Source: Thermococcus sp. (GTDB lineage Archaea; Methanobacteriota_B; Thermococci; Thermococcales; Thermococcaceae). Taken from it: 61,225 nt of DNA. Below the pieces are notes generated by a model that did no database searches, was not told where the DNA came from, and worked only from the letters and a program-made list of their open reading frames with translations. The position numbers were made by a program, and so were the translations under genes. The stretch's first letter is position 1; every line of letters starts with the position of its first letter. The stretch is from assembly GCF_027011145.1 (NCBI RefSeq), contig NZ_JALVAO010000045.1:1-61225 (forward strand). Direction: 5' to 3'. Below, piece after piece: positions 27,946 through 34,432 of this stretch.

Positions 27946-28857
27946 TCACTCGCGCTTGTAGGGCCTTCCGTCCCACTTGGGTGGCCTTGCCCTTCCTATT
28001 ATTCCCGCGACCACTATCAGTGTCACCACGTAGGGCAGGGTCGCTATGAACTGCCAGGGTATCGTTCCGGCGAGCCATGGGTTGTTCTGAATGTAGATGG
28101 CGAAGTTGTCGAAGAATCCGAAGAGGAACGCTCCTCCAAGGGCTATCAGCGGATTCCAGCCACTGAAGACCATGTTGGCCAGGGCTATGAAACCCCTTCC
28201 AGCGGCTATCGTCTTGGTCACCGTTCCAAGCCAGTCTACGCTGAGGTAAGCCCCTGCAACTCCAGCTAAGGCGCTCGCTATTAAAACTGCAGTGAAGCGG
28301 TAGAGCTCGACGTTTATTCCGAGTGCATCGGCCGCTTCGGGGTTCTCACCAACCGCCCTTATTCTCAGGCCGAATGGCGTCTTGAACAGCACCCACCAGG
28401 CTATTATCGCGACCGCTATAGTTATTGGCACGAGGGGGCTCAGGGAGTTTCCGAAGGCGTCCATCCACAGCGGGCTAATTTGGGCATTACTGGGAACCTG
28501 GTGCTGGCCGGCGGTTCCCCAGTAGGCCCTTATTCCAAAGGCCACCGCACCGTAGCCAAGGAGGTTGAGGCCTATGCCGGGAATCACGTGGTCGCCCTTC
28601 AGGTAAACCGTCAAGACGCCGTGGAGGACACCGAAGAGGAGTCCGATAAAGGCACCGCCAAGAAGGCCAATCCAGCCGTTGCCGGCTAACTCTGCAAAGA
28701 TTGCCCCGAAGAATGCCCCGAACATCAGAATTCCCTCGTAGCCTATGTTGACGACACCGGCCCTCTCGCTTATCACCGCGCCTATGCTCGTCAGGGCTAT
28801 AGGAACCATCGCCGCGAGTGACCCGAGGAGAAGGCTGATTACCATTGTCTCGTTCAT
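27946..28857 (-). CDS. Nucleoside-type ABC transporter permease, second subunit
   Basis: This 303-residue membrane protein has about eight to nine helices and the BPD_transp_2 features NIGYEGILMFGAFFGA, RAVGENPEAADALGI and GFIALANMVFSGWNP. It pairs with the permease encoded just upstream, with which it overlaps by 4 bp. The set resembles bacterial nucleoside importers of the NupQ/YufQ kind. It is the last gene of the operon and ends 5 bp from the convergent metal-binding protein gene. Confidence 0.88.
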   Translation of the reverse strand: MNETMVISLLLGSLAAMVPIALTSIGAVISERAGVVNIGYEGILMFGAFFGAIFAELAGNGWIGLLGGAFIGLLFGVLHGVLTVYLKGDHVIPGIGLNLLGYGAVAFGIRAYWGTAGQHQVPSNAQISPLWMDAFGNSLSPLVPITIAVAIIAWWVLFKTPFGLRIRAVGENPEAADALGINVELYRFTAVLIASALAGVAGAYLSVDWLGTVTKTIAAGRGFIALANMVFSGWNPLIALGGAFLFGFFDNFAIYIQNNPWLAGTIPWQFIATLPYVVTLIVVAGIIGRARPPKWDGRPYKRE

Positions 28858-29900
28858 GCCTTCCCCCTCCTGAAGAGCTTTGCGAATATGTCGAGCAGAC
28901 CGGGAACGGCAACGGCTATGATGATGATTCCCTCGATGACTTTGACCATCTCAAGGGGAACGTGGGCGTACTGTTGCATTGCCGTCGCTCCAGCGCTCAG
29001 CGCTCCGAAGAGTATTCCCGCAAAAATTATGCCGAGCGGATGATTCCTTCCGACAAGAGAAACGCCTATTCCATCGAAACCGTAGCCGTAGACGTTGGCC
29101 AGTCCCTGGGTTATTGCATAGCTTGGGGGCGTGCCCATCACTATCCCTGCACCAGCTAATCCCGCGGTCATTCCTCCAATGACAAAGGACCAGATTGCCG
29201 AGCGCTTGGGGTTTATTCCGCCGTATTCCGCCGCCCTCGGGTTCTGACCACTGGTTCTGAGTTCGTAGCCGAGTTTGGTGTGCCACATCACCACAAAGAC
29301 AATCACCGCGGTTATTATTGCGATTACAAACGCCCATGAAAGGCTCGTGTTCTTTACAAGGAGAGGCAACCTTGCCGAGGGGGGAACTGGAAGTGTACTG
29401 TTGGGGTCCTTAGGGTTGTAGTAAACGCTGACGGCCAGCCAGCTGACGAGGAAGAAGGCAATCCAGTTGAACATTATCGTTGAGATAACTTCGTGAACTC
29501 CGCGGTAGACTTTAAGAACTGCCGCTGGAAGGGCCCACAGGGCTCCAATGAGAAGGCCAGCTAGGAGGCCCGCTATTGGGTTCTGGAGATACTGGGTTAC
29601 TATTATAGCCGCTATCGCACCGAAGTAAACGGTTCCCTCGGCACCGATGTTAAAGAGCCCGGTTCTAGCACCTATCGCGAAGGTTATCGCCGTCAGTATT
29701 AGCGGGGCGGATTTGCTCAGTGTTTCCGCAATACCGTCTATTGATCCCAGTGAGCCTTTTATAAGCCAGTAATAGGCGGAACCAGCACTATAGCCACTGA
29801 ACCAGAGGACGAGTGCTCCAACAAACGCACCTATGAGGATGGCTAGAACGCTCTCAGCAACGGGCTTTGCGTATCCCCTGAGCTCATTTTTGAGGCTCAA
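28854..29900 (-). CDS. Nucleoside-type ABC transporter permease, first subunit
   Basis: This 348-residue membrane protein has RTGLFNIGAEGTVYFGA, RTSGQNPRAAEYGGI and GVSLVGRNHPLGIIFAGILFG, typical of the BPD_transp_2 family permeases paired with BMP binding proteins (NupP/YufP). TTG 29900 is favoured because GGAGGTG ends 6 nt before it; GTG 29909 overlaps that site. Its first bases overlap the ATPase gene by 17 bp. A longer extracellular loop (VYYNPKDPNSTLPVPPSAR) marks it off from the second permease. Confidence 0.88.
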   Translation of the reverse strand: MSLKNELRGYAKPVAESVLAILIGAFVGALVLWFSGYSAGSAYYWLIKGSLGSIDGIAETLSKSAPLILTAITFAIGARTGLFNIGAEGTVYFGAIAAIIVTQYLQNPIAGLLAGLLIGALWALPAAVLKVYRGVHEVISTIMFNWIAFFLVSWLAVSVYYNPKDPNSTLPVPPSARLPLLVKNTSLSWAFVIAIITAVIVFVVMWHTKLGYELRTSGQNPRAAEYGGINPKRSAIWSFVIGGMTAGLAGAGIVMGTPPSYAITQGLANVYGYGFDGIGVSLVGRNHPLGIIFAGILFGALSAGATAMQQYAHVPLEMVKVIEGIIIIAVAVPGLLDIFAKLFRRGKA

Positions 29901-31419
29901 CTTTAACACCTCCCATCATGAGTCCAATCTGTTCTTCGGTAACTTCATCGGGTTTCACTATGCCCATGAACTGTCCTTCGTACATTATGGCCATCCTGTC
30001 GCTGAGCTGGAGAACCTCATCGAGGTCGGCCGAGACGAGAAGAACTGCCTTGTCTTCGTTTCTCAGCTTGACCAAGTAGTTTCTTATGTACTCTGTCGAG
30101 GCAACGTCAACACCGCGCGTTGGCTGTGCCGCTATGATAAATTCCGGCTTCTTGCTTACTTCCCTCGCCACTATGAGCTTCTGCTGGTTTCCACCGCTCA
30201 GGCTTTTAACTGGTGCCTTGGTTCCCGGAGCACTGACCTCGAACTCCTCAATCAGCCTTTTCGCGTGTTCTTCTGCCCTGTTCCAGTCGAGTAGAAAACC
30301 CTTCGAGAACTCCTTTCTCCAGTGCATTCCGAGGATGGAGTTCTCGGTTACTGTCATTTCCAGAATTAATCCCATGTGGGTTCTATCCTCCGGAATGTGG
30401 GCCATTCCCATGTCGTAGAGCTCTCTGGGTTTTTTGCCGGTGATGTCAACGCCTTTGAGGTAAACCTTGCCCTTTTCCACCTTTCTCAATCCCGCTATGG
30501 CCTCTATCAGCTCGCTCTGACCGTTGCCCTCAACACCTGCTATGCCAAAAATCTCTCCAGCGCGAACCTCGAAGGTGAGCCCCCTTACTGCTTCTTCTCC
30601 CCTGTCTCCCTTCACCCAGAGGTTCTCAACTCTGAACACAACATCCCCGGGCTCTTTTGGGGGCTTTTCGATTCTTAGAACGACGTCCCTTCCGACCATC
30701 ATCCTCGCGAGGAGCTGGGGCGTTGCCTCGCTCGTCTTGACGGTTCCGACGACTTCCCCTTTCCTTATGACCGTAACCCTGTCCGTTATCTCCATGACCT
30801 CGTTGAGCTTGTGGCTGATGAAGATGATTGTTTTTCCCTGTTCTTTGAGCTTTCTCAGGACTGCGAAGAGTTCTTTGACTTCTATTGGGGTAAGAACAGC
30901 CGTGGGCTCGTCGAGAATCAGAATGTTGACATCACGGTATAGCATCTTTAAAATTTCAATCCTCTGCTGGACTCCGACGGGAAGGTTTTCAACGGGAACG
31001 TCCAGCGGAACCTGGAAGTTCAGCTCGTCCATTAGCTTTTGGAGCTTCTTTCTAGCATTTTCCACGTCAATCTTCGAGAGTAAGCCGTGTCCTTCCATTC
31101 CGAGGATGATGTTCTCAAGGGCGTTGAAAACCTCAACAAGGGTGAAGTGCTGGTGCACCATTCCAATACCGTTCGCTATAGCATCGGCGGGACTCTTAAA
31201 GCGGACTTCTTTTCCCCTAAGAAAGATTTTACCCTTTGTTGGCTTTAGCATACCAAAGAGGATTTTCATGAGCGTGGTTTTTCCGGCACCGTTCTCGCCG
31301 AGAAGACCGAGGATTTCACCTTCATAAACCTCAATCGTAACACCTTTCAGGGCTACTGTTCCATCAGGATAAACTTTGACAATGTCTCTCATCTCAAGCA
31401 CTGGAGTTCTCTCTTCCAT
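29884..31419 (-). CDS. Nucleoside/sugar-type ABC transporter ATPase (two ATP-binding domains)
   Basis: The 511-residue protein joins two ABC domains. The first has Walker A GENGAGKTTLMKI, the signature-like LPVGVQQRIEI and Walker B LILDEPTAVLTP. The second has a degenerate Walker A (GVEGNGQSELIEA), a true signature SLSGGNQQKLIVA and AAQPTRGVDV. This is the RbsA/NupO layout in which only one site is likely to hydrolyse ATP. ATG 31419 follows GGAGGTGATAGGA; the open frame extends 34 codons upstream without support. Confidence 0.92.
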   Translation of the reverse strand: MEERTPVLEMRDIVKVYPDGTVALKGVTIEVYEGEILGLLGENGAGKTTLMKILFGMLKPTKGKIFLRGKEVRFKSPADAIANGIGMVHQHFTLVEVFNALENIILGMEGHGLLSKIDVENARKKLQKLMDELNFQVPLDVPVENLPVGVQQRIEILKMLYRDVNILILDEPTAVLTPIEVKELFAVLRKLKEQGKTIIFISHKLNEVMEITDRVTVIRKGEVVGTVKTSEATPQLLARMMVGRDVVLRIEKPPKEPGDVVFRVENLWVKGDRGEEAVRGLTFEVRAGEIFGIAGVEGNGQSELIEAIAGLRKVEKGKVYLKGVDITGKKPRELYDMGMAHIPEDRTHMGLILEMTVTENSILGMHWRKEFSKGFLLDWNRAEEHAKRLIEEFEVSAPGTKAPVKSLSGGNQQKLIVAREVSKKPEFIIAAQPTRGVDVASTEYIRNYLVKLRNEDKAVLLVSADLDEVLQLSDRMAIMYEGQFMGIVKPDEVTEEQIGLMMGGVKVEPQK

Positions 31420-31462: not shown

Positions 31463-32773
31463 TCACTGCTTGTGGTTCTTGTAGTAGTCGAGGGCCCAGT
31501 AAGCACCGAAGCGGTAGCCACCCTCGAACTTGTAGAGAACCGGAATCTCCATACCGAGGACGATTCCGATGGTGTCCTTGTGGTCGTTGAGCGCTATAAG
31601 TGCCGCGAGGGCACCGGCGAGGGCTGAACCCTCGTTCTCCTTGAAGAGGACCATCTGGACGTTGTGTGGCATATTCGGATCGTAACCGTCAATAATGACG
31701 AACCTCTGCTTTGGATACTCCTTGGCAACCTGCTTAACCGCGTTGGTCATCATAAAGCCGACGGCTATTATTATGTCGTACTCTCCGGTCTTGGCGAGGC
31801 TCCTGAGGTTCGGGAGGTAGTCGTTCTCGCTGTTGCTCTGTATCTCGGTGAGCTGTAGACCGAACTCCTTGGCGGCCCTTTCGGCACCCATGTAGGCCAT
31901 GTCGTTGAAGCTCAGGTCACCCCTGCCACCGACGTCGTAAACTATGGCTATCTTTTTGGTGTTCTTCCTCTCGTTGAGGGTCTTGTTGAAGTATGTTTCT
32001 GGCTTTGGCTCCTTGGCAGCCCACTCCTTGGCGTATTTCTCCATTACTGTCCAGTTCTGAGCCTTCCTAAGGAGCTCGATCTGGTCTTTAGCTGTAGCCT
32101 TGGGGACGAGAATCTTTCCACTTATTATCTCCTGCTGAAGCTGGTCAACCGCCTGCCATATCCATGCCGGAACCTGCTGGCGGGTCTTGTTAAGGTATTC
32201 AAGGAGTTGCTCCTCGTTCTGGAATCCGAGGTCCTTAAGCTTCTTCTCCCTTACATCGGGCGGGAGGGAGTCGAACATGGCCTTGACATCTTGAAGTGTG
32301 CTGAGTTTGACACCACCTTCCTTGAGGCCAAGTTCTATAACGCCACCTCTAAACTGGTTCTCCTCTGCTTGCTTGACGGCGTTGTAGACACCAACATCAA
32401 CGCGCTTCATCATGCTTGCTATTATAACTCCTGGCTTGATCCAATCCTGGGCGGAGTCGACACCAATCGCGAATGGTGGGCCCATCTTCTTGTTGTGAGC
32501 CTTTAGGTAGTCCCCGACGGCCTCGAAAACACCGAGACCGGTTCCACCTGCGACCTGGTAAATTACCCAAGCACCCTGCTGAAGCTGGGCCTGTGCGGCC
32601 TGCTTACCCTTCGCAGGGTCACCAAAGGAACCGGTGTAGGTGTATAGGATGTTTATCTTTGTAGGTACGTTGGTTGCCGTTCCTGTTGAAGTTCCACCAC
32701 CGCTGATACAGCCGCTGGCCACGACGCTAAGGGCCATAAGGCCCACCAACAACAAACCGAACAGCTTTCGCAT
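31463..32773 (-). CDS. BMP-family substrate-binding lipoprotein with swapped halves (circular permutation)
   Basis: The 436-residue protein has a lipoprotein signal ending in VASGC (Cys22) and a Gly/Ser/Thr linker. In BMP proteins (PnrA, Med, TmpC) the order is VYDVGG, DKSFN, YxPNLR, VGF, FKExEGS, GMExPVxxKFExGY and then YTGSFxDPAKGK, GGTGLG, GVDSAQ, KRVDVxVY. Here the second half comes first (YTGSFGDPAKGKQAA near residue 50, GGTGLGVFEA, GVDSAQDWIKP, MKRVDVGVY), and the first half comes last (KKIAIVYDVGGRGDLSFNDMA near residue 265, FKENEGSALAG, IPVLYKFEGGYRFGAYWAL), stopping where the missing half should begin. Both halves are complete. It heads the ABC operon and would bind nucleosides. TATA-like TATTTATC is near 32825. 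Confidence 0.88.
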   Translation of the reverse strand: MRKLFGLLLVGLMALSVVASGCISGGGTSTGTATNVPTKINILYTYTGSFGDPAKGKQAAQAQLQQGAWVIYQVAGGTGLGVFEAVGDYLKAHNKKMGPPFAIGVDSAQDWIKPGVIIASMMKRVDVGVYNAVKQAEENQFRGGVIELGLKEGGVKLSTLQDVKAMFDSLPPDVREKKLKDLGFQNEEQLLEYLNKTRQQVPAWIWQAVDQLQQEIISGKILVPKATAKDQIELLRKAQNWTVMEKYAKEWAAKEPKPETYFNKTLNERKNTKKIAIVYDVGGRGDLSFNDMAYMGAERAAKEFGLQLTEIQSNSENDYLPNLRSLAKTGEYDIIIAVGFMMTNAVKQVAKEYPKQRFVIIDGYDPNMPHNVQMVLFKENEGSALAGALAALIALNDHKDTIGIVLGMEIPVLYKFEGGYRFGAYWALDYYKNHKQ

Positions 32774-32903: not shown

Positions 32904-33383
32904 ATGCTGAGGGAGATACTCAACCTCGACTCGGGCATTGTGATGGTCTCAGGGGGAGGCAGAAAGATAGCGAGGATTTACTTCCAATCGTGGGTAAAGC
33001 GGAGAAGAAAGGCCCTAGCTGAAGGGCTTCCTTTTTCAGTCGAGGGCGAAGTCTACGTTGGAAACCCCTTCCTGGCGGACTTTCCGGTTTATCTAATCGT
33101 CAATCCTCTGGCCAGAAAAAGTGTCGAGCGGGAAAAGTTGCTCCACTGGCTTGAACTTAAACGCAAGGAGGAAAAGCTCGTTCTCCTCTATGAGGAGCGC
33201 TACGTCGGGGATTCGATAGTCAGATACAGACTTAGGAACTACCTCGACTACCTCATAGCCTACCGGAGGGAAACTGTAGGAGTAGAGATTTTGAACGTTT
33301 ATAAGCTCGAAAACGGCCGGGTTGTTGAGAGGAAGACATACATAAGGCGCCCGATGACGAGTGGCTTCGGGTCTGAGAGGTGA
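32904..33383 (+). CDS. Hypothetical protein upstream of ftsY
   Basis: This 159-residue protein is not recognised. It is basic, has no membrane segment, and has alternating strands and helices; [15 protein letters not shown] and [20 protein letters not shown] are the most distinctive parts. ATG 32904 follows AAGGGAAGCGT. It lies divergent from the BMP operon and 62 bp before the ftsY start, with a TATA box of ftsY (TTTTTATATG) overlapping its downstream flank. Confidence 0.6.
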
Positions 33384-33445
33384 TGACACCAGCTATCGCC
33401 GAGGGCTTTTTATATGCCTTCCCCATTTCTTCTCAGGGTGAGAAC

Positions 33446-34432
33446 ATGTTTGGAAAGCTCAGGGAAAAGCTCAGGAAGTTCACCAAACAGGTGGAGGAGA
33501 AGATAGAGGAAGAGGAGAAAAAGGTCGAGAAAAAAGTTGAAACCGAGAAAAAGCCGGGTATAGTTGAGAGGCTTCTTCAGGTTGAGATTAAGGAGAAAGA
33601 CGTTGAAGATGCACTTGATGAACTTGAGCTTGAACTCCTTGAGGCGGACGTTGCTCTTGAAACGGTTGAAGCACTCAGAGAGAAAATCAAAGAAAAGCTC
33701 GTTGGGAAGAAGGTCCGCATAGGAACCAACAAGGCCAAGCTTATAGAAAACGCCCTTAGGGAGGCGATACTTGAGATTCTGACCCCCGAGAAAAAGCTCG
33801 ACCTCTTGGAGATGATTCGCTCCAAAGAGGAGAAGCCCTTTGTCATAGTTTTCGTCGGTTTCAACGGCTCGGGTAAGACTACGACAATAGCGAAGCTTGC
33901 CCACTGGCTGAAGAAGAACGGGTTAAGCGTTGTCGTGGCGGCGAGTGACACCTTCAGGGCCGGGGCCATAGAACAGCTGGAAGAGCACGCGAAGCGCGTC
34001 GGTGTTAAAGTTATCAAGCGCGATTACGGAGCCGACCCGGCGGCGGTGGCCTACGATGCCATACAGCACGCGAAGGCGAGGGGGATAGATGTCGTTCTCG
34101 TTGACACCGCCGGGAGGAACGAGCTCAACAGGAACCTCATGGACGAGATGAAGAAAATAGTCCGCGTCACGAAGCCTGACCTCGTTATCTTTGTCGGTGA
34201 CAGTCTGAGCGGAAACGCGGTTGTTGAACAGGCCAAGCAGTTCAACGAGGCGGTGAGAATAGACGGCGTGATTTTGACGAAGCTCGACGCAGATGCCAGA
34301 GGTGGAGCGGCTCTGAGCATAAGCCACGCTATTGGAGCGCCGATACTCTTCGTCGGCGTCGGCCAGGGCTACGATGATTTGAAGCCCTTCGACGAAAAGT
34401 GGTTCGTGGATAGGATTTTCGGGGAGGAGTGA
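33446..34432 (+). CDS. ftsY: Signal recognition particle receptor FtsY
   Basis: The 328-residue protein has an acidic, Lys/Glu-rich N-terminal A region ([14 protein letters not shown]), an N domain and the GTPase G domain with [42 protein letters not shown] and [10 protein letters not shown]. It receives ribosomes carried by the signal recognition particle at the membrane. ATG 33446 follows GGGTGAGAAC; the open frame runs 22 codons further but across the TATA box (TTTTTATATG, about 33408-33417). Confidence 0.95.

Follow-up and report, generated by a model that had tools for sequence, protein, structure and literature searches.

The window analyzed here, a 61,225-nucleotide stretch of Thermococcus sp. 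DNA, carries an operon of the NupDABC type, with one ATPase and two permeases. An uninterrupted ORF of 436 aa at positions 31463-32773 of the reverse strand, whose coordinates and strand we confirmed, was identified by Pfam, phmmer and its orthologues as a nupD orthologue that encodes a permuted BMP-family lipoprotein. It is followed on the same strand by a nupA-type ABC ATPase (29884-31419; the listed ORF extends upstream into nupD, and the likely start is the ATG at 31419) and by two BPD_transp_2 permeases, permease A (28854-29909) and permease B (27946-28857). If four other genome pairs are a guide, exchange of the cassette described below would stop within the final ~100 bp of permease B. 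The flank, outside this cassette, consists of d159 (32904-33383, forward strand), which encodes a conserved 159-aa protein, and ftsY (33380-34432, forward strand). The d159 product has no Pfam match, and its gene is divergent from the nup operon and adjoins ftsY in most genomes. The overall order is ftsY, d159, the four genes nupD, ATPase, permease A and permease B, and then a znuA-like gene. Permuted and standard-order binding protein genes share this one slot in most of the genomes examined; in the majority of other Thermococcus, it is occupied by a standard-order orthologue. No second BMP gene was found in the window genome.

The protein begins with the lipoprotein signal MRKLFGLLLVGLMALSVVASGC, which contains the lipobox VVASGC with Cys22 (residues 1-22, positions 32708-32773). 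Membership in the BMP family, which the sequence-only reading had proposed, was confirmed by Pfam Bmp (PF02608), which scores 177.8 bits against a gathering score of 24.1 and matches the ORF in two reversed pieces (E 3.3e-52). Residues 276-424 correspond to profile positions 4-149, and the segment upstream of them corresponds to positions 152-272. The same swapped order was obtained with phmmer against the nearest solved relatives, 4pev, Lbp (7x0r) and PnrA (6yab), and in the alignment with standard-order archaeal proteins, and the motifs that had been quoted for each half occur in the order originally reported. The order of halves lies outside the Pfam score, and that of the window protein is not the one usual in the BMP/PnrA family; it is instead a variant feature held in common with NupD. 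Against the NCBIfam model ABC_BMP_B6 (NF047927) the protein scores 81.1 bits, below the curated cut-off of 400.

We located the junctions by alignment with standard-order archaeal proteins cut into halves. Residues 39-250 (32024-32659) hold the standard C-terminal part, profile positions 152-272 and beyond, including the archaeal C-terminal extension of ~85 aa, which is retained whole. A linker of ~23 aa unique to the permuted proteins follows (residues 251-273, 31955-32023) and joins the old C-terminus to the old N-terminus. Residues 274-436 (31466-31954) comprise the standard N-terminal part and, by profile, alignment and AlphaFold2, the first strand-helix unit of lobe II. The standard loop YYKQKTGKDV-KIDVLYQYTG is split such that YYKNHKQ is the C-terminus here and KINILYTYTG the start of homology, with the KTGKDV region falling between the C-terminus and the homology start KINILYTYTGSF. 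Given this cut, essentially no conserved residue is lost, in agreement with the earlier claim that no part was missing. A search for the source of the 23-aa linker was negative, and visual comparison showed no resemblance to the Ser/Thr-rich anchor linker or to the standard C-terminus.

Thermococcus genomes, among them several assembled as one closed contig, contain full-length permuted orthologues with 81-95% identity. Both halves were in swapped order in 21 of 94 Thermococcaceae genomes, all within one genus (21 of 61 sampled Thermococcus), and a 22nd permuted gene is cut by a contig end; the remaining genomes have a standard gene, a fragment or none. No permuted relatives outside Thermococcus were found among 114 genomes of the phylum, and none of 83 plasmid records had a place covering 80% of the query. 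The window comes from a 70-contig draft, in which an assembly error could have put the two parts of a standard gene together in reverse, a possibility of misassembly that the sequence-only reading had raised. Against this stand the identical full-length order in 21 genomes, the closed single-contig ones included, and the published permuted order of TK0657 (PMC12628685), and we consider that misassembly can safely be set aside. The closest orthologues are all permuted and the more distant ones all standard, the reverse of the pattern that had been named as speaking against the permutation. The retention of the swapped order at full length in 21 genomes goes far beyond what chance would allow. 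The whole permuted gene is also under strong purifying selection, with dN/dS of about 0.04-0.09 against seven relatives.

A functional counterpart has been described. TK0657 of T. kodakarensis is NupD of the nucleoside importer NupDABC, reported in Appl Environ Microbiol in October 2025, and deletion of nupD impairs nucleoside-dependent growth, with five nucleosides affected (PMC12628685). The knockout background was an evolved strain whose NupD already bore two mutations; the published mutations are T39M (position 559628) and K117E (position 559861) (PMC12628685). These positions fall exactly on the ACG (T39) and AAG (K117) codons of the permuted gene in our T. kodakarensis genome (G011), which is therefore NupD. 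It is 81% identical to the window gene, collinear over residues 3-436, at the same locus and in the same permuted order, and both residues are conserved in the window protein as T45 and K123. The window protein is the NupD orthologue, and as such would serve the ABC importer as its substrate-binding subunit. All six pocket motifs occur in it and in 27/27 permuted rows, some of which represent one species from two collections, and the equivalents of BmpA Phe27, Asp98, Phe176, Asp225 and Lys242, assigned by motif, are in place. It is conceivable that the permuted protein has changed function and binds a ligand other than nucleosides. Its N half is 74% identical to those of other genera, against ~80% for standard Thermococcus proteins, and the permeases of permuted operons differ from the standard ones by ~40%. 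The complete set of pocket motifs and the growth phenotype of the orthologue knockout on five nucleosides (PMC12628685) make such a change unlikely. We conclude that the window protein is a genuine, very probably functional, circularly permuted nucleoside-binding lipoprotein.

An AlphaFold2 model of the window protein had a mean pLDDT of 89.5 and a pTM of 0.87, from an input alignment that included half-length rows; the linker was predicted with confidence. The first strand comprises residues 41-46, and the last elements of the chain are strand 401-406 and helix 411-434. Their equivalents in the standard orthologue are strand 206-211 for the start and strand 165-170 with helix 175-199 for the end, which places the cut in loop 199-206. 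Using the known type I topology to assign the lobes, the cut is inferred to lie inside lobe II. The sequence-only reading had the lipoprotein signal fused to what is normally the second lobe. As a small correction, the cut probably does not coincide with the lobe boundary but follows the initial strand-helix unit of lobe II. The chain would then begin at the second strand of that lobe, run to the old C-terminus, pass through the new linker to the old N-terminus, and stop once the first strand-helix unit of lobe II is complete. The fold is expected to remain the usual type I clamp of two lobes, with the nucleoside surrounded by the same residues, and the lipid anchor would hang from lobe II rather than lobe I. 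The standard orthologue model matched 4pev with a Z of 40 and PnrA with a Z of 35, while the permuted model reached only Z 12 to PnrA. This drop is expected from a sequential alignment of proteins that differ in order, and is not evidence for a different fold.

Permuted rows form one clade in the tree of re-ordered BMP proteins (SH-aLRT 100), in the trees built from one half at a time (99 and 95), and for the linked ATPase and permeases combined (97 in a quick search, 100/100 in a careful one). The hosts are scattered. At least seven changes between permuted and standard forms are needed on the tree of the ftsY and d159 flank, and at least six on the DNA tree of the unlinked rpoB region, both obtained from quick searches. 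On both trees the permuted genomes G005, G011 and G081 group with the standard genomes G015, G020 and G076, respectively, and permuted G024 groups with standard G001 and G031 on the flank tree and with G001, G004, G031 and G034 on the rpoB tree. Several independent permutations at one place would account for this scattering with no need for exchange. However, the permuted genes have their linker and cut in common, they form one clade with every part of the operon considered, and in close pairs the identity falls across the whole operon, well beyond nupD. Repeated permutation is therefore highly improbable, and the trees indicate that the permutation arose once. The permuted operon's placement relative to other genera has support of only 63/0. 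Permuted and standard permease A are 61% identical, and either is 61-66% identical to those of other genera; with the two operon versions as far apart as they are from other genera, the split must be old. The permuted and standard BMP halves themselves are 70-75% identical.

One genome, G081, has a second BMP copy, the only such case in the 94 Thermococcaceae. It encodes a 1042-aa protein (L074, contig C1, 8340-11465) in which Pfam identifies a standard-order BMP domain, DUF7662 and a Ser/Thr protein kinase domain; a hydrophobic segment lies between the domains by eye, and this architecture suggests that it is likely a nucleoside-sensing receptor kinase. Around 95 residues of its BMP C-half appear by eye to be very close to the permuted clade, and its N-half groups with standard proteins.

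Comparison of individual genomes indicated where the two versions differ. Between permuted G005 and standard G015, protein identity is 97% for ftsY and 93% for d159, 72/74% for the BMP halves, 80% for the ATPase, 61/65% for the permeases and 90% for the next gene. Between G005 and the window, both permuted, the corresponding values are 81%, 55%, 94/87%, 93%, 91/95% and 57%. Four close permuted/standard pairs differ mainly from the signal-peptide region to the last ~100 bp of permease B. On the left, the flank DNA alignment runs into nupD up to bases 68-77, just beyond the lipobox, and the signal peptide is identical in G005 and G015 and 99% identical in DNA in G081 and G076. For G024 and G011 the identity already drops over the last 75-150 bases; there, the left crossover may sit a little further upstream, or the signal peptide may merely have accumulated differences. 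On the right, identity in permuted/standard pairs stays at 59-68% until 100 bp before the end of permease B, rises to 73-83% over that final stretch, and is mostly 82-94% just past it (one pair has windows of 69-73%), with the opposite pattern in permuted-permuted pairs. In G005, a 2.2-kb insertion relative to G015 follows permease B, ~5.8-8.0 kb downstream of the nupD start and just outside the cassette boundary (L056).

The simplest reading is that nupDABC exists as two allelic cassettes at one locus, replaced whole by homologous recombination. The permuted gene with its cognate ATPase and permeases would form one of two versions of this chromosomal locus, and crossovers would fall close to the signal peptide on one side and where the second permease gene ends on the other. 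Since the signal peptide is for the most part a piece of the host flank and stays with it in close permuted/standard pairs, such exchange would explain why the lipoprotein signal sits on the "wrong" half and would maintain that fusion. Alternatively, both operons may have coexisted in an ancestor, as paralogues or a long-lived polymorphism, and been lost differentially without recent transfer. The depth of the split, comparable to that between genera, would suit this, as would a 53%-complete bin (G006) that holds standard and permuted nup operons (L109 and L110), in which a mixing of two species is likely. Yet there is a single common locus, no well-assembled genome among the 94 Thermococcaceae was found with both operons, and distant hosts have permuted operons more alike than their flanks (permeases 91/95% but d159 55% for G005 and the window), making differential loss a poor candidate. 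A different BMP operon, nearer to Desulfurococcales proteins and away from the ftsY locus, was seen in G022 (L108) and G066 (L089). For the explanation as a whole, a permuted NupD-orthologue lipoprotein of single origin within allelic cassettes exchanged by homologous recombination, we estimate a probability of about 0.92. It is probable, though less firmly so, that two topologically different, allelic importer versions, one with a permuted binding protein, pass between Thermococcus species as whole cassettes, that crossovers close to the signal peptide often leave the recipient its own promoter and export signal, and that the permuted protein perhaps works best with its own permeases.

Textbooks derive a circular permutation from a tandem duplication whose outer halves are then lost. 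A possible origin of this kind for permuted nupD fits the conservation of both complete halves; no intermediate of this route was found among the sequences searched. To our knowledge, a natural circular permutation is as a rule found only when distant relatives are compared. In this case, permuted and standard forms share a locus in close relatives, including the genetically tractable T. kodakarensis, so that an effect of the permutation on function, or a need for its own permeases, can be tested by plain allele swap. A whole transporter operon with altered topology also apparently moves by homologous replacement in hyperthermophilic archaea. The permuted order itself is not new. Known BMP proteins had been said to have the other order, which is true of the family in general but not of NupD/TK0657, published as permuted in October 2025 (PMC12628685). 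As far as that paper was searched, it does not use the word permutation and covers neither the distribution, nor the standard-order orthologues that occupy the same locus, nor the operon's exchange. As far as the literature was searched, the distribution at a shared locus, the allelic cassettes and the exchange of nupDABC are new.

The nearest known systems are PnrA/TmpC (2FQW), the S. pneumoniae protein 6Y9U, Aeropyrum 4PEV and the standard Thermococcus orthologues, which have the family, pocket motifs and ABC operon in common with the window protein. The two-lobe type I fold of the three solved proteins is predicted for it as well. All of them differ in having the standard half order and the lipid anchor on lobe I. 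The best collinear match of the permuted model was 5ER3, a solute-binding protein of Rhodopirellula baltica (Z 18.0, 278 residues aligned, model residues 19-430), which was absent from the best 50 rows of the standard model. With 12% identity it was not retrieved by the sequence profile, and searches for a sequence link or for a paper on 5ER3 returned nothing; from the structural match, it may be another permuted binding protein. A "domain dislocation" precedent for OpuAC was not found in the open paper on that protein. An earlier permuted type I binding protein is Treponema TpMglB-2/Tp0684 (5JX2), classified as Type Ic / Cluster Bc, likewise a naturally circularly permuted lipoprotein, which keeps its ligand binding (PMC4990184). 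TpMglB-2 is a glucose binder of another family, and its permuted part is barely similar to its standard relatives (PMC4990184). Its cut falls in the N lobe, three strands of which have been transferred to the C-terminus (PMC4990184), whereas that of the window protein is inferred to be in lobe II. Here a single strand-helix unit (E401-406, H411-434) ends the chain and the strands of the N half are contiguous, an arrangement distinct from Type Ic / Cluster Bc.
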